The notes under the pieces are model-generated. The model worked only from the letters and a program-made list of their open reading frames with translations. It was not told the origin of the DNA and searched no databases. DNA of 36,537 bases from Anaerolineales bacterium (GTDB lineage Bacteria; Chloroflexota; Anaerolineae; Anaerolineales; Villigracilaceae): positions 1 through 36,537 of the forward strand of contig JALHUM010000123.1 of assembly GCA_022865905.1 (NCBI GenBank). Direction: 5' to 3'. The position numbers were made by a program, and so were the translations under genes. Below, one piece after another: positions 1-23,807 of this stretch. The stretch's first letter is position 1; every line of letters begins with the position of its first letter.

Positions 1-150
1 GACCAGCGCCGCGCCGTTGAAGGTGCGCAGGCGGGTGAGGACGGTATAGCCGAGGTGCGGACCTTCGCCCAGGCCTAACGCCCAGCCGTCGCGCGCCGGT
101 TCGAAAACGGGCGGGGGACCTTCGATGATGGTGATTTTGTTTTCATCCAT
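1..150 (-). CDS. Conserved hypothetical protein, N-terminal part only (runs off window start)
   Basis: Reverse strand reads MDENKITIIEGPPPVFEPARDGWALGLGEGPHLGYTVLTRLRTFNGAALV with no stop to the window edge; ATG at 150..148. Not in the ORF track because it is edge-truncated. Confidence 0.7.
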   Translation of the reverse strand, partial: MDENKITIIEGPPPVFEPARDGWALGLGEGPHLGYTVLTRLRTFNGAALV

Positions 151-201
151 GAAAGAACCCTGTGTCTGGGAATGGGAAAATCATACCACAAAACCTGAAG
201 T

Positions 202-258
202 AACGAACCCGTTTCCTTCGCGAAGCACCCCCGAAGGGGGCAAGGAAACGGGTTCGTT
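202..258. repeat. Large inverted repeat (17-bp perfect arms plus inner CCCCC/GGGGG stem)
   Basis: AACGAACCCGTTTCCTT (202-218) ... AAGGAAACGGGTTCGTT (242-258); the loop contains CACCCCCGAAGGGGG. Confidence 0.9.
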
Positions 259-509
259 GTTACCGCAACGGCTATTGCCTGAGTTTCAGCAATGCGGATG
301 TGGAAAAGTTCACGTTTCGAGTGGCGCGCACCCAACTCGACCTGCCAAGATGGCAGAGTGGTTTCAGGCTCACAGTGCGCTGATGACTAGCAAGGAATGA
401 TTCCTGCTTCATTATCAGACGGATTCTTTACAGGCGAGATCACGATTAGTAAGGAAGGGACAACCACATAGGAGGAGGGCGAGAATTTCCTGCTCGGGGA
501 AAAATGGTC

Positions 510-515
510 TATAAT
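510..515 (+). promoter_or_regulatory. Candidate -10 box (TATAAT) for the cassette starting at 567
   Basis: TATAAT at 510-515 upstream of ATG 567; no clear -35 recognised. Confidence 0.4.
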
Positions 516-566
516 AGTGTTAATCTATTTTCGTAAGCGTAGACTGAGCAGTGGGATAAGGCGAAA

Positions 567-2672
567 ATGAGCGCCTCTGGTTACATAATTGTCGTTCTCG
601 TTCTTGCAGTCGCAATTGCCGGTGCGATTGGTTACTTGTTGCTTGCTAACAAAAAAAGAGGGCGCAGTTTAATGGGTGAAAAGCCGGAGATACAGAAGGG
701 TGAATCTACAAAACCATTGGCAGAAACTGAGAGACAATCAATTGAGGAAGCACACACGCACTAAGCGGTTGGGGAAATAACACAAGAGGCCAAAGAAGCG
801 CCCTCGGTTAGCGAGGTCGAAGGGTTACCGGATACTCCAGAAGAAATTCAGAGGGTAACACCACCCAAGAGAGGAGGAAGAACTCATCGAAACGAAGGGG
901 AAAAATCGCAAACGCGCGAAGGAAGTCCTCACCATCCGAAACCCGAGATTGTTTGTTGGGAAAAGGGGCGAGAATGGTTTTTAGGTATAGAAGTTCCTGA
1001 AGAACTTTGTAAGAGCGGTGAGGTGGGGATAATGCAAGACTCTTTACGATTGGAGCGGGATACATCGCGAACAAATTGCTGGTGCCTCACCCATGCTTTT
1101 GGTAAGTTAACCGTAAGTACGGTAGAAGACCCTATCGTTTTGGGCAAAGAGGGTGAAAGCTATCTCTTGTTCAAACTTAGTGGGGAAAATCGAAGAGAGG
1201 GCCGTCTTGTGACATCACCATCTTCCGGGGAATATCTCGTGGTCGTCCCTGCTAATTGGAAAATTTCACACCAAATCTCTGTTTCCTCTGAACAAATCGA
1301 CATGGAATCGTACCAGGCTTGCTGGCATGTTTTTGACACAACAGATAACAAAAAAATGGTTTTCTCCACTCCCAAAGGTGAGAAGAATATCCATTCCAAA
1401 TCCCCCCGATTTCGGATGATTGGTCCAAGTCTGAATGACGCAAGTTATATAGGGCCTCTCTTCGTCGAGAATCCTCCCCAAATCGGCACCCACGACATTA
1501 CAGATTGGAATGAGGTCGGAACGATCATCATCGGCGAAATTGGAGAAAGCCGATGGAGATCAGAAGTTCCTCTGACATTGGAAATTGCCATCCAAACTTT
1601 ACCTCCAGAAGCATTGGAGAGAGGAAGCGGATGGTATTTTCTAAGGTTCTATGACCAACATGACGATTTGATGGAAAGCCTCGATTTCAGATATGTCCGC
1701 GGCTTGAAAAAGATCAAAATGCCTCGTCCTCAGCCGTTTCCTCTTGAAGCGGGGCATGAGCTGACGTGTGTAGAAATTTTTCACGACCCCGAATGTACTT
1801 TCGAATCCGCTGATACGCTTTCAACTGATATTCGCATTGAACGTACAAACACTGGAACGGCATTATCTATCCCCCCGAATCCTGCATGCGACAAAACACG
1901 CTGGCGAATCAGTTGTGGTTCTGGCGCTAAAGTTAATATAACCATCTTGGTTGAAAGAATCTGGTGGAACATCGGAACCAAAATTGAAATACCATCTGCT
2001 TGGAAAGATCGGTTTGAGCCATTACCGAAAGATAGTTTTTCGGCCACATCCTATATTACATTATGGCTACGATTTCCTGCTCAACGCTGGGTCAAGAAAG
2101 TCGCAGTTGGTTTCCTGAGAGACCAAGCAAGAGAGTATCAAGTGGCCGTTATGGAGCAAACAGTCTGCATTCCCTTGCGCGAATTCGAGGTAAGGGACTT
2201 GCATCGCGACCATTTTCTACGGGTATGGCTTGAGCGTGGCGGAAAACAACATGAAGGTATAGTTGCGGTTGTTGCAGGTTTGCGCCCAGACTGGATAGGA
2301 TATGGGAGAAAGAAATCCGCTATAGCCGTAGCAATGATGCGTAAAGGCACTGGTGCGATGGAGATTAATGGATTCCCACTGACGGAATATTTCCAAAGAG
2401 CTCCATCTGAGGCACAACTCTTTTGGCGGCGTTTGCACGAACTCGAGCCAATACCTGCCATACTTTCGCAATTAGATGTTTCTCTTCGAGTAAGGGGAAG
2501 TAGTCCAAAAACAAAACGCCAATTGATGGCTGTTGCACATGCACTGGCTCATGCGCTCACGAACTACAAACCCGAACTGACTTCAATGCTGAAACGGGAA
2601 GGATTTGGAGGTGCGAGAGTCTCAAAATCAGCCTGTTTAGGCAAGGAGGGGTTGCTGAATGAATCCGATTGA
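567..2672 (+). pseudogene. N-terminally membrane-anchored protein with C-terminal ribosomal protein uS9-like domain; interrupted by one in-frame TAA (762-764)
   Basis: ORFs 567..764 and 1023..2672 are in the same frame. The gap 765-1022 is stop-free and reads AVGEITQEAKEAPSVSEVEGLPDTPEEIQRVTPPKRGGRTHRNEGEKSQTREGSPHHPKPEIVCWEKGREWFLGIEVPEELCKSGE. N-terminal TM segment GYIIVVLVLAVAIAGAIGYLLL. May be a pseudogene, a readthrough gene, or a shorter gene starting at GTG 1023. Confidence 0.65.
2289..2669 (+). other. uS9-like domain (Ribosomal_S9 type) within the preceding CDS
   Basis: DWIGYGRKKSAIAVAMMRKGTGAMEINGFPLTEYFQR...LDVSLRVRGSSPKTKRQLMAVAHALAHALTNYKPELTSMLKREGF follows the uS9 pattern GRRKs.ARV..GxGxxxINxxxLxxYFxR...LDxxxxVxGG...A.xHGIxRAL....LR..LKxxGF; the SKR tail is absent. 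Confidence 0.7.
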
Positions 2673-5600
2673 ACTGGCGCAGAACATTGAAAAAAACTAT
2701 CGCCAATACTTGCAGACCACTTTCTATTTCAAAGATAAAGAACTCCGCGAGTCTTTCGAGAGCGCGTTGATCTCTGGACGCCTAAGCAAAGGCCCGTATC
2801 TCGAAGCAACTCCAATCTTCAAGCGGACGCAAATGACTCGCGAGTTGTTTCCAGAATTGTTGGGGTTTCAACCAGATGAAGGATTCTTGAAAGCGACAGA
2901 CAAGCATCTTTATAAACATCAAGAAGAAGCAATTCGACGCGTAGACCAGGGGCGCAATGTTGTTGTTTCAACTGGAACAGGGAGTGGAAAGACCGAGGCC
3001 TTTCTTTATCCCATCCTTCTGCACCTGTATCGAGAATTTCATGCGAACCAATTATGCCCAGGCGTGAGAGCATTGATCCTTTACCCTATGAACGCGCTGG
3101 CAAACGATCAGCGGGAGAGGCTTGCGGGACAACCCGATAAATACACACAACCAGGAATCTTGTGGACACTTCAACAAGAGCAATCCCTATTCAATTTCAA
3201 GTTTGGACAATACATCGGCGAAACACCAAACGACGAGGGAGATCGAAGACGGCATGGTAATGCTCATGAAGAGCGTCGCTTGCCAGGGGAGTATATTTTC
3301 CGAGAGGAAATGCGAGCAACGCCACCACATGTCCTTCTCACCAATTACTCTATGCTTGAATATCTATTATTGCGACCTGACGATAGTCCCTTGTTTGATA
3401 ATGCGCGTTGGTGGACGTATTTAGTTTTGGATGAGGCACATCAGTATCGCGGCTCACGCGGTATCGAAATGGCAATGCTAATCAGACGCTTAAAACAAAG
3501 ACTTAGAGAAGGTGGTAGAACTGCTCCCTTTCGTTGTATCGCCACGAGCGCAACACTTGGAAACGAGGAAGATAAGAAAACTGTCGCGGAATTTGCGTCA
3601 GACTTGTTTGGTGAGGAATTCCAGGAAGACGATGTGATTCTCGGTGATGTTGAACCAATCCCCCAAACAGGCCCCAACAGTCTTGATATTGCTGACTACA
3701 CTATACTCCAAGGCGCACTTCAGGGAAACGGCGAGTCAAAGGCTCACTTGATCGAGGTGGCAATAAAACTTGGAGCATCTCTCGAAAACGATGTGGATTT
3801 ACCCAAACTCACTGGAGGGCTTCTGAAAAAGGATTATCGGACTTGGTTATTACGAAACAAAGTCGCTGGTAATCCCTGCGCTGTACAGGAAGTTGCCGAC
3901 TACGTTTTTAATAACATTCCAACCGAAGAACGTGTAGGCGCATTGTCGAAACTTGTCGAACTCTTGATGAAAGCAAGAGATCCAGACTCAAGTGCCCCTC
4001 TCTTATCATCACGTTACCACGTTTTCCTCAGGTCACTGGAGGGCGCTTTTGTCTCCTATGATTGGCCTAATAAAAGGGTCGTTCTTGAGCGAAAAAATGA
4101 AGAGGGCAAAGGTATGGCTTTTGAGATTGCCCTGTGCCGCGAGTGTGGACAGCATTATTTTGTGGGAACGAAAAACTTCAAAGGAGGGAAACTATTGGAG
4201 GCAAATCGCGACCCCGGTCATGACAATTTTGGGGTCAGCTTCCTGCGCACTTTGAATGATGATGAAGATATCATTAATGATGAAGATGAAACAGAAGATA
4301 ACCGCGTAATTTTTCAACTGTGCGTGCAATGTGGCGAAGCGAGCACCGATAAGCCAACTTGTGGGCATGAAAACCACATACGCGTAGTGAGGGAATCTTC
4401 GCACGAGGATGATAGGGCAGATCAATTGAAGAGATGTGGGGCTTGTGGATACAACGCGTCAGGTCATGATCCCGTTCGTGAAATAATCTATGGCGCAGAT
4501 GGTCCCCATGCTGTGATCGCAACCACTTTATATCAAAACCTACCCGAAGGCAGAAAGAAAATATTGGCTTTTGCAGACGGACGACAGCAAGCCGCTTTCT
4601 TTGCTTGGTATTTGGGCAACACTTATGCAGACATTCTCAGTCGCAATCGAATTCATAAAATCTTGCACAGTTACGAAAGTTTTCCGGCGGTCGGCATCAA
4701 GCTAACGAGTTTGGCTCGTAAAGCATTTGCTGATTATAGTGATTCTTTCAGACAAAAAGCGTACGATGATCCTGATGAAATCCGAATCAATATCTGGCGT
4801 TCTCTCTATCGAGAATTGCTGACAGAGGAGCAACGTATATCTCTTGAGGGTGTTGGCTTGCTCCGCTGGTCAGTTGAATGGCCTGAATGGATTAAAGCCC
4901 CCGCAGTTTTTCTCGACCATCCTTGGTTCCTTAGTGAGTCAGAAGCATTCGATTTATTGTTTCTTCTCATAGATACCATGAGAGCTGATCGTGCCGTAGA
5001 ACTTCGTACCGAATCGGATGTTTCTCTACGTTGGAATGACCTCGGCGGGCAGTCAGCGCAGAGGCGTGTTACAAAAAGTGAAGAGGGAAGACTCAAGAGT
5101 TGGGAACGAAAATGGTGCGGGAAAACAGGAAGGCGAGCCCGTTTGCTTGCCAAGATACTTGAAAGAAATGGAACTCCAGAGACTGAAGCCGTGGAAAAAG
5201 CAATAAGTGCTTTGAGAAAGGTTTGGGATAGTTTAACGAAATGTGATGAAAACGCTCCATCATCCCAATAGCGTTTGTTAGCGATAATAGAGGGAGACAC
5301 TCGAAGGCTTAACCCTGAATGGCTACGAGTTTTCCCAATTACTGAGGACGATGTGCTATTCCAATGCAATACTTGTCGTCGTTTGCAAACCGTCTCAGTG
5401 AGAGGAATTTGTTCAAGGCATGGCTGTTCTGGCAAGCTTGAAGAAAAGCGATTGAGAGAAATTGAGCCTAACCACTATCGTCGTCTATATCAAGAAGATA
5501 TGCCAGCGTCCCTTATCGTTGAAGAACACACTGCTCAACTTGATCACGAAAAGGCGCGTGAATTTCAGCGGGACTTTCGAGAAGGTAAAATTCATGTTTT

Positions 5601-7350
5601 AAGTTGTTCAACCACTTTCGAATTGGGCGTTGATCTCGGAAATCTTGATACCGCTTTCTTGCGCAATGTACCACCTGAAATCTTTAACTACGCACAACGA
5701 GTAGGACGGGTAGGACGCCGCAGCGGGATTCCTGGGTTCGCCATTACTTATTGCGGACGCAATCCTCATGATCTCTATCATTTTATCGAACCTTTACAGA
5801 TGATCAAAGGAAAAATACAGCCTCCTGTGTTGAGTCTCAAGAATTACAAGATCATTTCCCGTCATGTGACTGCAACCGCTTTGTCAGCCTTTTTTCAAAA
5901 TCACAAAGAAAGATTCAAGACCGTTGAAAACCTTTGCGAAGACCTATCCAATCCAAAGTTTGTTTCCGATTTCGAGATTTTCCTTAATGCGCATCGAACT
6001 GAGTTGGAAAATTCATTGCGAACAATAATTCCGCAGGATATGTTTACCTCTCTAGGTTTGCATGACGGTACATGGATTCAAGCAATCGCGGGTGAAAACA
6101 GCAGAATATCTTATTCCGTAGACGAAGTCTCAAGTGATTATAAGAAAACAATAGCTCTTAAGGAAATGCTTTCAAAGGAAGAGAAATATGATTTAGCCAA
6201 TTGGGCAAAGAAACGCGCTGAAACTATCGCTGGAGATGATGTTCTCTCTTTTTTGTCGCGTAAGGCTGTAATCCCCAAATATGGTTTCCCAGTAGATGTT
6301 GTTGAACTGGACACTCAGAGGGTAAAAAGTAGCCAAGATGCATCCGAAGTTCTCCTCCAAAGAGATCTTACAATAGCGATTTCTGAATTTGCCCCCACGA
6401 GTTCCCTGATTGCCAACAAAAAGGTTTGGACCTCCTATGGCTTGAAAAAAGTCGCCGAACGGGAGTGGGATCGCTGGTGGTATGCAAGATGCCCCACACA
6501 CGCTCGCTTTGAACGGAAACGGTATGAGGGCGAAGAACGTCCGCCTTCTTTTGAGGGGTGCTGCCCCAAAATGAAAATCTACCAATATATTGAACCGAAG
6601 TTTGGCTTTGTAACAAGCCTAGAAAAACCAAAGGAACCAACAGGTCGCCCCATAAAGGTCTTCACGACGCGGCCTTATTTTGCAGGCTTCAAAGACAAAA
6701 AGGGCGAGGAAAAAGATTTCAACGCTGTCATTCTGACCACCGTCTCGCCTGGCTATATGGTTGTAGTTTGCGAGGGCCGCAGAGGTGAAGGCTTTTTCAT
6801 TTGTAAAGATTGTGGGGCAGGATTCCGAAATATTAAGGATTTTCGAAAAGAGCATGACACCCCTCAAGGCTATAAGTGTCCAGCTAGGCCCGAAACACTC
6901 CGACCGAGCGTATCACTCGGCCACGAGTTGGTAACTGATGTATTAAAAATCCAGTTCAGCCATCCCCCTTCAGTACTCATAGAAGAACCAGGGTTTGCCT
7001 TTTCGCTTGCCTATGCAATGGTGGAAGGTGCAGCATACATTTTAGGAGTGCGACCGAATGATCTGAGTGCGACTGTCGCCTATGGCAGCGATGATTATCC
7101 TATACCACCGATAATTCTCTATGATAACGTGCCTGGTGGGGCAGGGCTTGTCGCACGGCTTGAGGATAAAAACACATTTCGAGATTGCCTAGAATCTGCG
7201 AAGAGAAGGTTGGGCGGTGCGTGCGGTTGTGGCGAAACTGATAGTTGTTACGGTTGTTTGAGAAGTTACAGAAACCAGTTCGCGCATCAGTACCTGCAAA
7301 GAGGACCAGTATTGCGCTACCTTGATGATATTCTGGCGAAATGGCTTTGA
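2659..7350 (+). pseudogene. DEAD/DEAH-box helicase with Zn-finger and C-terminal DUF1998-like region, interrupted by one in-frame TAG (5269-5271)
   Basis: ORFs 2659..5271 and 5275..7350 share a frame and are separated only by TAG. Motifs: Walker A STGTGSGKTEAFL, LVLDEAHQYRG, CIATSATL, ILAFADGRQQAAFF, then after the stop STTFELGVDLGNLDTAFLRNVPPEIFNYAQRVGRVGRRSG. CxxC pairs (CREC, CVQC, CGAC). C-terminal GGACGCGETDSCYGCLRSYRNQFAHQYLQRG is DUF1998-like. Start overlaps the upstream gene by 14 bp. Confidence 0.8.
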
Positions 7351-7441
7351 TATGTGTCCTCTCAGAAAGTGCATGCCGCCGCAGTTCCTTAACCAGCACA
7401 TGGTGGTATTTGGGGAGGAGGGGCGAATAAGGAAAAATAAA

Positions 7442-7495
7442 CTTTGTGGCGACAGTTGCCTCTCCTGGCCGGGCCAGGGAACTATCGCCACAAAG
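7442..7495. terminator. Strong inverted repeat between convergent genes, probable bidirectional terminator or palindromic element
   Basis: CTTTGTGGCGA (7442-7452) pairs with TCGCCACAAAG (7485-7495), with inner AGTTGCC..CTGGCC / GGCCAGGGAACT; T-rich flanks. Confidence 0.7.
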
Positions 7496-7502
7496 CTTTT
7501 CT

Positions 7503-8876
7503 TTATGACTTCGCCACAACTTGCGGCAGTTCTTTCATGGCTTCCTTCACTGCTTCGGCAGGATAGGCGTAATCTTCCAACTGCCCGCGCAGGAAGGCCT
7601 GATACGCCCCCATGTCAAAGTGCCCATGACCCGACAGGTTGAACAGGATAACGCGCTTCTCGCCCTTGGCTTTGGCATCCAGAGCCTCGTCAATGGCGGC
7701 GCGAATGGCATGCGCTGATTCCGGTGCGGGAAGGATGCCCTCCGCCCGCGCAAAGGCTACCGCTGCCTCAAAGGTCGCCACCTGCGGCACGGCGATAGCA
7801 TCAATGTATCCGGCGTCGCAAAAGGCACTCAGGCTGGGAGCCATCCCATGGTAACGCAGACCGCCGGCATGGATGGACGGCGGCACGAAGGAGTGTCCAA
7901 GCGTATACATCTTGACGATAGGGGCCATCTTAGCCGTATCGCCAAAATCGAAGGCGTACACGCCTTTCGTCAGAGAGGGCGTGGCGGTCGGCTCGACGGC
8001 CACAAAACGTGTGTGCTTGCCCCCTTTCAGATTCTGACGCAGGAAGGGGTAGGCAAGCCCGGCATAATTCGATCCGCCGCCCACGCAGCCGATGACCACA
8101 TCCGGGTATTCCCCTGCCAGGTCCATCTGCTTGAGGGCTTCCTCGCCGATGACTGTCTGGTGCATCAGCACATGGTTCAGCACCGAGCCGAGGCTGTACT
8201 TCTTGGCTCCGCCGGAAGTCGCGGCGACTTCCACTGCCTCTGAGATGGCAATGCCCAGTGAACCGGGGCTTTCCGGATCTTTAGCTCGCAACGAGCGCCC
8301 GAACTGCGTCCGCTCCGTTGGGCTGGCGTAGACCTGCGCACCGTAGGTTTCCATCATGATGCGGCGGTAGGGTTTTTGGTCGTACGAGACACGCACCATG
8401 TACACTTCCAGGTCAAGGCCAAAGAAATTGCAGGCCAGCGCCAACGCTGAGCCCCATTGCCCCGCGCCGGTTTCGGTGGTCAGGGACTTGGTGCCGGCGG
8501 CTTTGTTGTAGAATGCCTGGGCGATGGCTGTATTCGGTTTGTGACTACCTGCCGGGGAGACGCTCTCGTTCTTGTAGTAAATATGAGCAGGCGTGCCCAG
8601 CGCCTGTTCCAGGCGGCGGGCGCGGTGTAACGGTGTGGGACGGTACAGCTTGTAGATTTCGCGCACCGGCTCAGGGATCTCGATGTAGCGCTCGGCGCTG
8701 ATTTCCTGCAGGATCAGTTCCATGGGGAAAAGCACCGAGAGGAAATCCGGTGTGACCGGCTCGAGGGTGGCCGGATGCAGCACTGGCGTGGGCGGAAGAG
8801 GACTGTCAGCCATCACGTTGTACCAGTATTTCGGCAGGTCGGTTTCGTTCAACAGAAAACGGGTTTGGTCAGACAT
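7503..8876 (-). CDS. trpB: TrpB-like pyridoxal-phosphate enzyme (tryptophan synthase beta, TrpB2 type)
   Basis: MSDQTRFLLNETDLPKYWYNVMADSP...YRPTPLHRARRLEQ...HIYYKNESVSPAGSHKPNTA...TETGAGQWGSALA...GCVGGGSNYAG. ATG at 8876 is preceded by an AAGGAG-type RBS and a Trp T-box. The upstream extension of the ORF track is repeat-derived. Confidence 0.9.
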   Translation of the reverse strand: MSDQTRFLLNETDLPKYWYNVMADSPLPPTPVLHPATLEPVTPDFLSVLFPMELILQEISAERYIEIPEPVREIYKLYRPTPLHRARRLEQALGTPAHIYYKNESVSPAGSHKPNTAIAQAFYNKAAGTKSLTTETGAGQWGSALALACNFFGLDLEVYMVRVSYDQKPYRRIMMETYGAQVYASPTERTQFGRSLRAKDPESPGSLGIAISEAVEVAATSGGAKKYSLGSVLNHVLMHQTVIGEEALKQMDLAGEYPDVVIGCVGGGSNYAGLAYPFLRQNLKGGKHTRFVAVEPTATPSLTKGVYAFDFGDTAKMAPIVKMYTLGHSFVPPSIHAGGLRYHGMAPSLSAFCDAGYIDAIAVPQVATFEAAVAFARAEGILPAPESAHAIRAAIDEALDAKAKGEKRVILFNLSGHGHFDMGAYQAFLRGQLEDYAYPAEAVKEAMKELPQVVAKS

Positions 8877-8893
8877 GGGAGACTCCTTGGGGT

Positions 8894-8930
8894 GGTAGAT
8901 TGGTAGATTAGTAGTTTGGTAAATTGGTAA
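8894..8930. repeat. 8-bp periodic degenerate tandem repeat in the trpB leader
   Basis: GGTAGATT GGTAGATT AGTAGTTT GGTAAATT GGTAA on the + strand. Confidence 0.8.
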
Positions 8931-9030
8931 CGCGCGAACGTATAAACGTTCAAATGCACAAACGCCACTACACCCTTCAAGGCGGATGCAAGGAAATAGC
9001 AAATTCGATTTGCAGATTCATTTAGACCTC

Positions 9031-14375: not shown

Positions 14376-15461
14376 TCACCCCAGCACTTCCAAGTTGGCC
14401 AGTGGAACGGTGATTTGTTCGCCGCCTTCCAGGCGCACCTCGCCAGCCGGCAGGCGCAAGCCATTGGGCATGGCCGTCAGGCCTGGCAACAGCGTCACCA
14501 GCGTGCCCACCCGGCCGGCATCAGGCGCCCGAACCAGCCGCACCTGCTGGCCTGAGGCAAAGGACTCCACGTGGCGCGGCTGCGGCGCTTCTTCAGAAAC
14601 GGGCAGGGGAATGATGATTTCAGGCCGCGCGCCAGTGTAGCAATTGTAAGGTTCTCCATTCGCCGTCACTTCGCGCTTGGAATTGGTGGTCAGGAGCCGG
14701 TAAGCAGCTGCGTTCATCGCCCGGCGGTCGAACCCGTCGAGCACCACCACCGGGTAGCTTATCTGCATGGCGAGCGGCAGCAGCGCCGACGAGATACTAC
14801 CCAGGATCAAGCCGCGCACCGGCAACTCGTTTGCCGCTCGCAAGGCCGCCGCGTCGCTACAGGTGCCGCACAACAGCACCGAGCCGCGCAGGCTGACATC
14901 TATCCGGTCGGCGGTTAACGGATCGCCGGGCGAAGAAAGCAAGGGGAGCATCAGCCCAACGTCCACGCGGCCGTTGCCCCATACACCCTCGATGAGGGCG
15001 CCGTTCATCGTGATCTCTGCGCCCCGTTCCGGGATAAGGCGGGTGACGACCCCGGGCAGCCCGGCGCGCAGCTCGTACGTTCCCTCGCCGACCTCCAGCA
15101 GGATCTGCCCGCTTCCCACTGCCACCACGCGCCCGCTGCGCGGCGAGCGTACGTTCTTTCGGAATAACCCGCCGCGCGCCGCAACGATCTGTCCCTCTTC
15201 GACGCGGTCGCCAGTCCGCACCTGCACCAGTGTGTCGGCGATCTCCTCCGAGACCCCCAGCCCGGCGACCACATCCAGCAAGATGTGTTCCTGCCCAAAA
15301 TTGGCTTCCGCGATCACGTCTACCGGCATGACCTTCTGATCCAGGCGGACCACCACCCGCCCCGGGATGGGCAGAAGCCGCTCGCGGCGGAGGGTGGTGA
15401 GGGGCAACACGTGGGCAACGGGTGCGAGCATGGGGCCTAACCTCCAACCGTCCAAAGCCAT
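14376..15461 (-). CDS. Conserved hypothetical protein, lipoyl/barrel-sandwich-like segment and C-terminal KOW-like segment
   Basis: Intact ORF overlapping the start of the upstream MutL-like gene; VRTGDRVEEGQIVAARGGLFRKNVRSPRSGRVVAVGSG resembles a sandwich-hybrid motif. Confidence 0.7.
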   Translation of the reverse strand: MALDGWRLGPMLAPVAHVLPLTTLRRERLLPIPGRVVVRLDQKVMPVDVIAEANFGQEHILLDVVAGLGVSEEIADTLVQVRTGDRVEEGQIVAARGGLFRKNVRSPRSGRVVAVGSGQILLEVGEGTYELRAGLPGVVTRLIPERGAEITMNGALIEGVWGNGRVDVGLMLPLLSSPGDPLTADRIDVSLRGSVLLCGTCSDAAALRAANELPVRGLILGSISSALLPLAMQISYPVVVLDGFDRRAMNAAAYRLLTTNSKREVTANGEPYNCYTGARPEIIIPLPVSEEAPQPRHVESFASGQQVRLVRAPDAGRVGTLVTLLPGLTAMPNGLRLPAGEVRLEGGEQITVPLANLEVLG

Positions 15462-17188
15462 TTCTTGAGCAGCTCGCGCCGGTGGGCCTGGTCGGCGGGG
15501 AAGCGCAGCGGGCGGCCGCGCCCATCCACGATCACGCCCATCGCCGTCCCGTTGACGGTCATGCTGCCGCCGAGGCCGGGGCCAAAGCCGACATCGGCAT
15601 GGTGGAGAGGCTCAAGGTACAGGCGGGCCGATTGGCCGATGGGCAAGGGCAGGATCTCCAGCGCGCCCGGCTTGACTTCCAGCCGGCTCTCGTTGCCGTT
15701 CTCGTAGACCAGTTGGGCGCGCAGAAGGGGCGTTCCAGGCCGGGAGGATGACAACGGCGAGACGACAGTCGCCAATCCGAGGAAGGCGCCCGATTCGAGC
15801 ACCTGGATTGGAAGGATCGCGTTCAGGTTGGCGGCCGCGCCCAGGGCCGGCAGAAGGTTATTCTGATCCAGGATCAAAGTGGTGACCCCGACCGGCTGGA
15901 TGGCATCCAGCAGGATCAGCAGACTCTGGCCCCGCGTGGGCACGTGGGTGATGGCGCTGCCTCCGGCCAGTATAGGTTCGAAATAGGGGGTCATGCCGGG
16001 CGCCAGCCGCCGGGCGCAGGGGGAGAAGTCTTTGCTCGCCGCGTTCATCGCCAGGTAAAGGGTCTGGCGGGCAAGGGCCTGTTCAAGGGCCAGGTCTTCA
16101 GCCGTTGCCGGGATGGAAGTTGGGTAAAGCGATTTCTGGTAGAGGTAATCTTGCACCACGTCGGCCGGGATGTCGAGCGGCAGCCAGCGGAGGATATCCT
16201 CCAGGCTGGTGTACCCCAGCAAACCGGAAAGCCCTTCGCCCAGGCCAAGCTGCGGATAGACGCCCAACGTCAGCTCGCCGCCGAACGAGGCGGCCACCGT
16301 TGCGTCCGTGGCGCCGATGTCAATGCCCAGGACACCCTTGCGGGGATCGTAGATCTGGCTGAGGAAGCGGATGATGCGCCCCTGAGCATAGGCCGTCGGC
16401 ATGAGGTTGCCGCCCGCCCAGGCCCCCAGTTCCTCCACGCCGCCGATCTGGTTCATGCGGATGTGGGCGTAGAGATCGGCCAGGATGCGTTGAGCAGGCA
16501 ACAGATCCTCGGTTTCGAGCGTAGGGCGTAGGTTCGCGCCGATGCTCAAGGAGGCAGTCAGCGACTTGAATGAAGCCTTGACTTCGGGGACGAGCGCCTG
16601 GTTCCCTGCGAACAAGAGCGCCGGGCGTTTATCTGGAGGCAGCAGGTAACAGGCCAGGCCGATGGTTTCGAGGATGCGTTGCATCGATCGCGTGGCGCCG
16701 CCGTCGGTGCCTCCAGCAACCAGGATGAGGTCTGGGCGCAGGCGCAGGATGTTGTCAATCTGTTCCTCCGGCTTGCGCCGGTCGTTCATGCCGATGGCCT
16801 CGACCACCCGTGTGTAAGTGGTACGCGCCAACCGCTGGGCGCTCTCGAAGGAGACATCTGCTAGGAGGCCGACAACAACCGTTTTGATGGCCGGCCCAGC
16901 CGAGATCGTAGCCGCGAATGTATCCACCCCGCTGCCGCCCTGTGAGGGGATGATCAGGCGCAGGTTGGTATCCAACAGCGTCCGGCCAGTGACCGCCTCC
17001 AGATTCCTGATGGCCTGGTGCACGCCCTCGCCGACGTTCTTGAACGGCGCGATGGCAGTGGACGCTGCCTGACCGGAGGCGATGAAGCGATAATAGCCTT
17101 CGACCACGTCGAAGTGCGTGGCACGCGTTGTGGCGGCGCCAACATCTACAACCAGGAGGGAGTCTGCGTCAACCAGCGAGGTAGGCAT
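15437..17188 (-). CDS. MutL/GlmL family protein (glutamate mutase MutL-like, ASKHA fold)
   Basis: LLVVDVGAATTRATHFDVVEGYYRFIASG...GGSGVD...LILVAGGTDGGATRSM...GVLGIDIGATDATVAASFGGE...ILAGGSAITHVP. Confidence 0.85.
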   Translation of the reverse strand: MPTSLVDADSLLVVDVGAATTRATHFDVVEGYYRFIASGQAASTAIAPFKNVGEGVHQAIRNLEAVTGRTLLDTNLRLIIPSQGGSGVDTFAATISAGPAIKTVVVGLLADVSFESAQRLARTTYTRVVEAIGMNDRRKPEEQIDNILRLRPDLILVAGGTDGGATRSMQRILETIGLACYLLPPDKRPALLFAGNQALVPEVKASFKSLTASLSIGANLRPTLETEDLLPAQRILADLYAHIRMNQIGGVEELGAWAGGNLMPTAYAQGRIIRFLSQIYDPRKGVLGIDIGATDATVAASFGGELTLGVYPQLGLGEGLSGLLGYTSLEDILRWLPLDIPADVVQDYLYQKSLYPTSIPATAEDLALEQALARQTLYLAMNAASKDFSPCARRLAPGMTPYFEPILAGGSAITHVPTRGQSLLILLDAIQPVGVTTLILDQNNLLPALGAAANLNAILPIQVLESGAFLGLATVVSPLSSSRPGTPLLRAQLVYENGNESRLEVKPGALEILPLPIGQSARLYLEPLHHADVGFGPGLGGSMTVNGTAMGVIVDGRGRPLRFPADQAHRRELLKKWLWTVGG

Positions 17189-22715: not shown

Positions 22716-22768
22716 CGTTTTACGTTTTCCGCTCTACGTGTTCGCAGTACGTAAAACGTGAAGTGTAA
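22716..22768. repeat. Intergenic ACGT-rich imperfect inverted repeat
   Basis: TTACGTTTTACGTTTTC ... GTACGTAAAACGTGAAGTG between the B12-binding and meaB genes. Confidence 0.6.
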
Positions 22769-22778
22769 GGATCCAGCG

Positions 22779-23807
22779 ATGAAATTGGTTGATGCCGTCC
22801 TTTCCAGCGACCGTCTGGCGCTCTCCCGCCTGCTGACCCAGGTAGAGAACGACACGCCCGAAGGCCGCGCCGCCCTCGATGCCCTCTTTCCCCACACCGG
22901 AAAGGCGCATCTGATCGGCGTGACCGGCGCACCTGGGACGGGGAAATCCTCGCTTGTCAACCAACTGGCGCTCTACTACCGCAAACAGACGGGAAAACGC
23001 GTCGCCGTCGTCGCCGTGGACCCGACCAGTCCTTTCACCGGCGGCGCGCTGCTCGGCGACCGGGTGCGGATGCGCGACCTGGCTGGCGATGCGGACGTGT
23101 TCATCCGCTCGATGGCCTCGCGCGGCTCGCTCGGAGGCCTGGCCCACGCAACGGCGGCCCTATCGCAGGTCTTCGACGCGGCCGGCTACGAGATCATTTT
23201 CATCGAAACGGTCGGAGCGGGACAGGCGGAGGTGGACATCGCCCGCCTGGCGCACACCACGCTGGTGGTCGAGGCGCCGGGCTTCGGGGATGAGATCCAG
23301 GCCATCAAGGCCGGCATCCTGGAGATCGCCGACATCCTGGTGCTCAATAAAGCTGACCAGCCGGGCGTGGAAATCACCGAGCGCGCCCTGCGCGATATGC
23401 TCGAGATGGCGCATCCGGTGCGACGCATCTTCCAACATCATGGTAGCCTGATTTCGGGCTACCATCATGGCAAGGTTGAAACCCTCGATGCCCCTGTCAG
23501 TTTGCCTGAAAATCTATGGGTACCCCCGATCCTGCGCACCATCGCCATCCAGGAGACAGGCTCCGTCGAACTGGCCGAAGCCATTGCCCATCACAGGGAG
23601 CACCTGCGTCAGAGCGGAGACTGGTCGCGCCGCGAGCATGCCCGCCTGGAACGCGAGGTCGAGGCGTTGATCCAGGAGACTCTGGCGGCGCAATTCCGCG
23701 CCAACATCCAAGCAGCTTACTACGAGAAGGTGCTTGTTCAGGTTTTCGAGCACCAGCTCTCGCCGTGGGAGGCTGTCAAGGCCTTGCTGAATGGGAGGCA
23801 GACATGA
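22779..23807 (+). CDS. meaB: MeaB/ArgK-family G3E GTPase (methylmalonyl-CoA mutase chaperone)
   Basis: IGVTGAPGTGKSSLVNQLALYYRKQTGKRVAVVAVDPTSPFTGGALLGDRVRM...DVFIRSMASRGSLGGLA...FIETVGAGQAEVDIA...LVLNKAD. Confidence 0.95.
   Translation: MKLVDAVLSSDRLALSRLLTQVENDTPEGRAALDALFPHTGKAHLIGVTGAPGTGKSSLVNQLALYYRKQTGKRVAVVAVDPTSPFTGGALLGDRVRMRDLAGDADVFIRSMASRGSLGGLAHATAALSQVFDAAGYEIIFIETVGAGQAEVDIARLAHTTLVVEAPGFGDEIQAIKAGILEIADILVLNKADQPGVEITERALRDMLEMAHPVRRIFQHHGSLISGYHHGKVETLDAPVSLPENLWVPPILRTIAIQETGSVELAEAIAHHREHLRQSGDWSRREHARLEREVEALIQETLAAQFRANIQAAYYEKVLVQVFEHQLSPWEAVKALLNGRQT

Follow-up and report, generated by a model that had tools for sequence, protein, structure and literature searches.

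The window analysed here, a contig of 36,537 nucleotides (JALHUM010000123.1, our contig C45) from a draft Anaerolineales genome (GCA_022865905.1; 359 contigs, 94.7% complete, 5.2% contamination), carries near its start two overlapping genes that, on balance, we take to be a probably decayed copy of a two-component, membrane-tethered variant of Druantia III, in which a shortened DruH is paired with a DruE-type helicase and whose role is probably antiphage. This reading is built on the helicase motifs of gene 2 and its lack of a nuclease tail, on the conserved pairing of the two genes and, in the partner protein encoded by gene 1, on a DruH-related immunoglobulin-like (Ig-like) core, an N-terminal anchor helix and C-terminal tails that have been exchanged between relatives. 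An initial annotation, made from the sequence alone, had described a transmembrane (TM)/uS9-like protein followed by a DUF1998-type helicase, had compared the pair with Druantia III (DruH plus DruE) and had left open whether it was a variant or a new type. The comparison was the right lead, and gene 1 does have a TM helix and a uS9-like C-terminus. Its conserved part, however, is a shortened DruH relative on which uS9 is only one of several tails, so that the cassette is best read as a variant branch of Druantia III and not as an undescribed, unrelated system.

The DruE-type helicase

By its domains and its best-matching models, gene 2 is a nuclease-less helicase of the DruE type. It contains DEAD, Helicase_C and MZB/DUF1998 domains with several CxxC pairs, as first described, and the protein stops about 30 amino acids (aa) past the MZB, as it does in most close relatives; no C-terminal nuclease domain follows the MZB in gene 2, whereas E. 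coli DruE has two PLD domains there. Among the PADLOC models, those for DruE score best (DruE1 E = 3e-173, DruE3 1e-160, DruE2 3e-138), with DpdJ (3e-20), DrmA and BrxH far below, in agreement with the proposed defence-type helicase. The top PDB matches are solved helicases of the size of E. coli DruE; MrfA/YprA is also homologous (6znp, 1.6e-24).

A tree of 82 helicases, from which MrfA itself was absent, places gene 2 in a 25-row clade with full support (100), confirmed by IQ-TREE (100/100). The clade spans about 11 phyla, with bacteria from Chloroflexota/Thermomicrobiota, Bacteroidota, Thermodesulfobacteriota, Bacillota, Acidobacteriota, Planctomycetota, Gemmatimonadota, Pseudomonadota, Latescibacterota and Spirochaetota and one archaeon (Methanophagales). 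It is the sister (99-100 support) of, and is not nested within, a branch that holds mycobacterial, Chloroflexota, clostridial and archaeal DruE, the neighbours of which are mostly long DruH-type proteins; E. coli DruE and the Meiothermus DruA-associated DruE lie outside both. This sister branch matches the published nuclease-less “Type III-like” helicase group (PMC12458937) and includes relatives of the DruE of M. smegmatis. The M. smegmatis DruH-DruE pair (MSMEG_1253-1254) is experimentally antiphage, has no annotated DruE nuclease, is triggered by a minor tail protein and is reported to block phage circularisation or replication (PMC13316683). The helicase phylogeny thus did not lead to a non-defence clade, nor did the upstream gene turn out to be unconserved.

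A conserved partner with a DruH-related core

A relative of gene 1 is encoded upstream of the helicase at 24/24 clade loci with a readable upstream gene (tblastn and hidden Markov model, HMM). The partner HMM matches 6/400 Chloroflexota genomes, its 5 full matches all lying directly upstream of a clade helicase, and the wider helicase set is itself patchy (19/400). A class-level search brought four more partner genomes; of these, one has two copies of the partner and another has its partner gene broken. The Chloroflexota genome G555 has two partner loci on separate contigs (L162 and L167). Between relatives the partner is 31-41% identical and the helicase 48-61%, the partner diverging faster, as has been reported for DruH versus DruE.

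PADLOC finds no match for gene 1, nor for 7/8 of the relatives' partner and DruH-position proteins, and no long DruH-type protein encoded beside a sister-branch helicase scores better than 2e-4 with the partner HMM. The link to DruH emerges from profiles: hhalign of 20 partners against 25 DruH-type proteins aligns 403 columns (E = 1.7e-15, probability 98.5), and a DruH HMM matches the partners of L037 (5e-15), L038 (4e-12), L060 (2e-10) and L043 (1e-9) and the window protein (1e-7), always in the middle of DruH, while reversed sequences yield no match. In E. coli DruH, residues 257-748 form three Ig-like domains, for which a role in recognising phage proteins has been proposed (PMC13192584). 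As judged from these alignments, the partner core is the region that matches this Ig-like sensor part, the DruH N-terminus being replaced by an anchor and a linker. The partner of L041 (L041:4706-8299) joins a DruH N-terminus (7e-51) to the clade core in one protein and is an apparent natural intermediate between the DruH of Druantia III and the short-DruH family.

An AlphaFold2 (AF2) model of the window partner, made from a 20-row alignment, has a mean predicted local distance difference test (pLDDT) of 79 and gives the architecture listed in Table 1. Foldseek with the full model returns tandem Ig-like proteins at low global TM-score, which supports the fold class only. Residues rich in K and R follow the TM helix, and the C-terminus is predicted to be cytoplasmic. 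A second model, of a partner bearing an eL13-like tail (mean pLDDT 62), shows an amphipathic N-terminal helix, a 420-residue linker, a similar array and a small C-terminal domain; in the partners tested the N-termini are TM or strongly amphipathic, and many partners are 700-800 aa long. An RGGR motif in the linker (residues 102-105 in gene 1) recurs in 12/27 partners vs 1/54 DruH-type proteins and 2/80 helicases. Two loci with helicases outside the clade, L050:6711-9014 (Aquificaceae) and L051:3839-6706 (Archaeoglobus), also have partners that begin with an amphipathic helix.

Table 1. Features of the cassette, in window coordinates.
Feature	Position	Strand	Basis or remark
Gene 1, membrane-anchored short-DruH partner	567..2672	+	702 codons including stop; frame broken at codon 66
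N-terminal TM helix, residues 3-29	573..653	+	AF2; Kyte-Doolittle 2.9
Disordered linker, residues ~31-120	657..926	+	pLDDT<50
In-frame TAA, codon 66 of gene 1	762..764	+	lies between TM segment and core
Tandem beta-sandwich (Ig-like) core, residues 127-570	945..2276	+	AF2, Foldseek, hhalign, DruH HMM
uS9-like module, residues 577-686	2295..2624	+	PF00380, PRK00132, PDB uS9, alignment, AF2 fold ~585-680
Gene 2, DruE-type YprA-family superfamily 2 (SF2) helicase	2659..7350	+	1564 codons including stop; frame broken at codon 871
Walker A TGTGSGKT, residues 105-112	2971..2994	+	sequence; invariant in A1
DEAH box, residues 258-261	3430..3441	+	sequence
In-frame TAG, codon 871 of gene 2	5269..5271	+	divides helicase into 870 + 691 aa
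MZB/DUF1998 Zn-binding domain, residues 1450-1534	7006..7260	+	domain search

Exchanged C-terminal tails

Past the core the partner sequences diverge into tails of several kinds: zinc fingers, uS9-like, eL13-like and helical. Three Cys/His finger units are present at L024/L053, L026/L042, L027/L048, L030, L031, L038, L040, L043, L049 and L092 and in three further Chloroflexota genomes, with weak Pfam support for the fingers. The uS9-like domain (PF00380) is found in the window protein (4.5e-12, passing the gathering score), in L037 of Bacteroidota (2.7e-14) and in L039 of Methanophagales (1.9e-10). An eL13-like domain, matching the archaeal L13e model PRK12277 at 6e-8 to 1.5e-17, ends the partners of L057, L060, L063 and L105 and, outside the clade, of L050, across 5 phyla; L050 bears this tail even though the partner HMM fails to recognise its core. 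Helical tails (L044, L045, L046, L047) and other tails (L041, L056, L071, L087) were labelled by eye. Different tails stand on sister helicases at fully supported nodes (window/L040 and L037/L038), and the 20 labelled rows require at least 8 tail changes on the helicase tree; tails have thus been exchanged repeatedly. A DruH-type protein of the Chloroflexota genome G279 (L034:11360-15433) has a C-terminus that matches the MzaA model (5e-55), which suggests that DruH tails are also exchanged with other defence systems.

The window module matches PRK00132 at 3.6e-12 and PDB uS9 at 3e-8. The uS9 modules keep the GYGRKK, YF, HA(I/L)A and YxPxL signature positions and lack the basic C-terminal uS9 tail. 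In a tree with 27 rpsI sequences, which came from Chloroflexota and E. coli, the three modules group together (100/99.6) at a great distance from rpsI; the history is therefore most simply explained by one capture and subsequent transfer. Gene 1 is not a true ribosomal uS9: its module scores below the NCBIfam equivalog cut-off (46.7 vs 112 bits), the tail is missing and the source genome has a separate rpsI of its own. A chance match or a fusion with the local rpsI was likewise rejected, since the module recurs in a member of the Bacteroidota and an archaeon, forms one clade and is distant from the rpsI of Chloroflexota and E. coli.

Interrupted reading frames

The two genes lie on the same strand and overlap by 14 bp (2659-2672), as first reported, and since they overlap, co-transcription is likely. 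The shared promoter that had been proposed was not recovered; a sigma-70 consensus scan of window 150-800 finds none. Apart from one stop each, gene 1 is open over 701 codons and gene 2 over 1563, and the stops were read through for searches only, giving 701 and 1563 residues. Other window genes end in TAA, TAG and TGA, and those checked have no internal stops; the stops in genes 1 and 2 are therefore real under the standard code, and an altered genetic code is ruled out by the use of TAA and TAG as terminators elsewhere in the window. With one stop in each gene, the window copy is probably inactive and the system in this genome probably off as assembled. Gene 1 is broken in three of the Chloroflexota copies seen, and such copies could possibly reflect a carriage cost or phase variation; the interrupted partner genes besides the window's are at L027:7596-10221 (G316) and L166/L168 (G658).

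There are two other ways to regard these stops. They might be artefacts, of assembly or of the population, in a metagenome-type draft genome, with an intact system in the living cell; the 359 contigs and 5.2% contamination of the assembly and the occurrence of single stops without frameshifts lend this some substance, but two independent stops inside 4.5 kb and the intactness of the other window genes checked speak against it, and we give it only a minor chance of being right. Alternatively, the downstream polypeptides could still function, as a soluble Ig/uS9 core restarting at GTG 1023 and as a two-subunit helicase (870 + 691 aa, restart at TTG 5275) that would recall the separate DrmA and DrmB of DISARM. 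Although both downstream frames are open and of coding-type composition, the helicase break falls far upstream of the OB/DUF1998 part that DISARM has separate, the helicase relatives listed from the homologue search have no stop within the matched region, GTG and TTG are weak restart codons, and the breakage of partner genes in G316 and G658 suggests loss; this alternative seems highly improbable.

Genomic setting and origin

As first described, the cassette is an isolated unit among housekeeping-type genes: a TrpB-like pyridoxal phosphate (PLP) enzyme (7503-9002, minus strand) comes after it, and no further defence gene was recognised among the scanned flanking genes, which also contain no methylase, PLD, DruA-D or Dpd partner. 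Ordinary-metabolism genes elsewhere in the window encode a MutL/GlmL-type protein (15437-17188) and, at 22758-23807, a MeaB-type GTPase of the pathways that use B12-dependent mutases. The GC content is 0.445-0.49 over window 1-7500 vs 0.54-0.66 in the remaining window, and in three genomes of the same genus the neighbouring trpB-like region is present but has no cassette beside it; from this GC shift and this absence, the cassette looks horizontally acquired, and probably was. One genome, G367, holds a related cassette elsewhere, with the helicase on contig C135 and the start of the partner on C175.

A phage- or plasmid-borne origin was rejected, the partner having no relatives in the viral contigs or plasmids searched and the viral-contig helicases being distant (only 24-30% identical); a tRNA integration site was rejected because the window has no tRNA. 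About 300 bp upstream of the cassette, at window 185-280, lies a palindrome with a stem of ~20 bp, part of a dispersed repeat with 19 matches in the source genome and 6-8 in each same-genus genome, which is a possible insertion landmark.

Several relatives are located in defence islands. L024 adjoins GajA (Gabija) and Cmr4, L040 adjoins HmaC/DUF499 and a TIR/NDT (TIR-like) protein, L043 a PLD-helicase/HmaA-like protein and L045 PDC-S13; these four loci were chosen for their suggestive neighbours and do not amount to a measure of enrichment.

Proposed function and alternatives

The cassette family may work by membrane-tethered sensing of a phage product and of a tail ligand, followed by engagement of the helicase. 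The anchor would hold the Ig-like sensor at the cytoplasmic face of the membrane, the site at which phage DNA comes in and virion proteins accumulate, and the Ig-like array, shared with DruH, would recognise a phage product. The tail, whether uS9-like, eL13-like or made of zinc fingers, would bind nucleic acid and determine which molecule is watched or captured; for the ribosomal modules the ligand would most likely be RNA or a ribonucleoprotein. Once activated, the sensor might load or release the helicase onto phage DNA intermediates that contain single-stranded DNA, and the helicase could strip or block these intermediates. Although it has no nuclease of its own, it would in this way prevent circularisation and replication.

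Several points weigh against this reading. Both window genes are interrupted; homology with DruH is distant, with ~10% identity in the profile alignment, and is confined to the middle third of DruH; the partner lacks the C-terminal regions of DruH that have been linked to nuclease activity and to ATP binding, and the DruE PLD nuclease is missing too, which leaves an effector nuclease unaccounted for. Nucleic-acid binding by the tails is presumed from family membership, and both the window cassette and the uS9-bearing L037 are surrounded by housekeeping genes and lie in no defence island.

A different function for the sensor would be to guard the ribosome or translation, with the uS9-like and eL13-like tails as decoys or tethers: the partner would dock on rRNA or mimic a ribosomal protein that is attacked or displaced by phage products, and release the helicase once translation is subverted. 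Two unrelated ribosomal-protein families do occupy the same tail position (uS9-like in 3 phyla at E 1e-10 to 4e-15, eL13-like in 5 phyla at 6e-8 to 1.5e-17), the residues that do not vary among the three uS9 modules fall on the uS9 signature, the GxGRKK segment among them, and domains that interact with translation are found in the CoCoNuT systems (PMC11090510), which are related to Druantia I/II. Yet most members have zinc fingers or helical tails, the uS9 module has lost the C-terminal tail of uS9 and stands far apart from all rpsI sequences tested, and the common theme may be mere nucleic-acid binding, so that we hold a guard to be unlikely. It is similarly doubtful that the family as a whole is a cross-phylum immune family whose membrane-tethered sensor, with captured uS9 and archaeal-type eL13 as exchangeable tails, either detects phage attack on the ribosome or its RNA or intercepts phage transcripts at the membrane, the response coming from a DNA helicase that has no nuclease. 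The least likely of the functions considered is DNA repair by a housekeeping pair like MrfA/YprA, in which the partner would anchor repair at the membrane. The MrfA/YprA homology of gene 2 and the housekeeping genes around the window cassette would fit such a pair, but presence is patchy for helicase and partner alike, the spread crosses phyla and the bacteria-archaea divide, the GC content is alien, there is no MrfB, the DruE match is much stronger and several loci have defence neighbours.

If the membrane-tethered Druantia III variant is the right reading, the sensor half of Druantia III would be modular, one Ig-like core and a membrane anchor carrying at least 4 kinds of tail swapped between close relatives. 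The two ribosomal-protein tails would point to RNA or the ribosome as a possible target watched by a defence built on a DNA helicase, and the natural tail variants would make the question of what DruH senses directly testable. The lack of a recognisable nuclease raises the question of how a helicase alone stops a phage.

Comparison with known systems

Several systems with related helicases were set aside. DISARM is ruled out since helicase and DUF1998 are in one frame in the relatives and no methylase or PLD gene adjoins. For Dpd/BRIGADE, no 7-deazaguanine genes or PLD partner were recognised among the scanned window genes and the DpdJ match is weak, and for ARMADA no BrxHII-like helicase or PglX-like methylase was recognised in the window and no Vsr tail follows the MZB. 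The MrfAB/YprAB repair pair is excluded by the partner, a TM-Ig-uS9 protein and not the MrfB exonuclease. TALON shares a DruE/ARMADA-like YprA helicase and is mostly found in Chloroflexota (PMC12458937), but no NERD nuclease, TPR-CSD or TBP is present among the scanned window genes and the helicase has no RNase H tail. CoCoNuTs and Druantia I-II (PMC11090510, PMC12458937) have subunits with domains predicted to touch the translation machinery, and the Druantia I-II helicase is related; here, however, no CnuB/CnuC GTPase, HEPN, DruA-D or coiled-coil partner was found, and the translation-type domains are uS9 and eL13.

Druantia III-A, the E. coli DruH-DruE pair (PMC13192584), shares a DruE-family SF2 helicase with MZB and Ig-like partner domains, proposed as the phage sensor. 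Of the traits of the DruH gene in Druantia III generally, the window has the upstream position and the overlap, whereas the N-terminal part of DruH (J-like in III-A) and its C-terminal part are absent from the partner; E. coli DruE (~2110 aa) has two PLD domains past the MZB vs none in the 1563-aa window helicase. The Druantia III-B-like systems are also close, with two genes, the DruH-type gene first and an overlapping start, a nuclease-less DruE that ends at DUF1998, a sister helicase clade and a DruH middle that is homologous to the partner core. There, DruH is ~1100-1350 aa long, compared with the shorter length of many partners here, in which the DruH N-terminus has given way to a membrane anchor and linker and the C-terminus to a zinc-finger, uS9-like, eL13-like or helical module. 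In the papers searched we found no description of a DruH that is short, anchored in the membrane and equipped with exchangeable tails, of which two derive from ribosomal proteins, although the helicases themselves may appear in the supplementary tables of PMC12458937. Thus, the helicase branch type and the two-component logic of Druantia III are already known, and what appears to be new is the membrane-anchored short DruH with its swapped tails.

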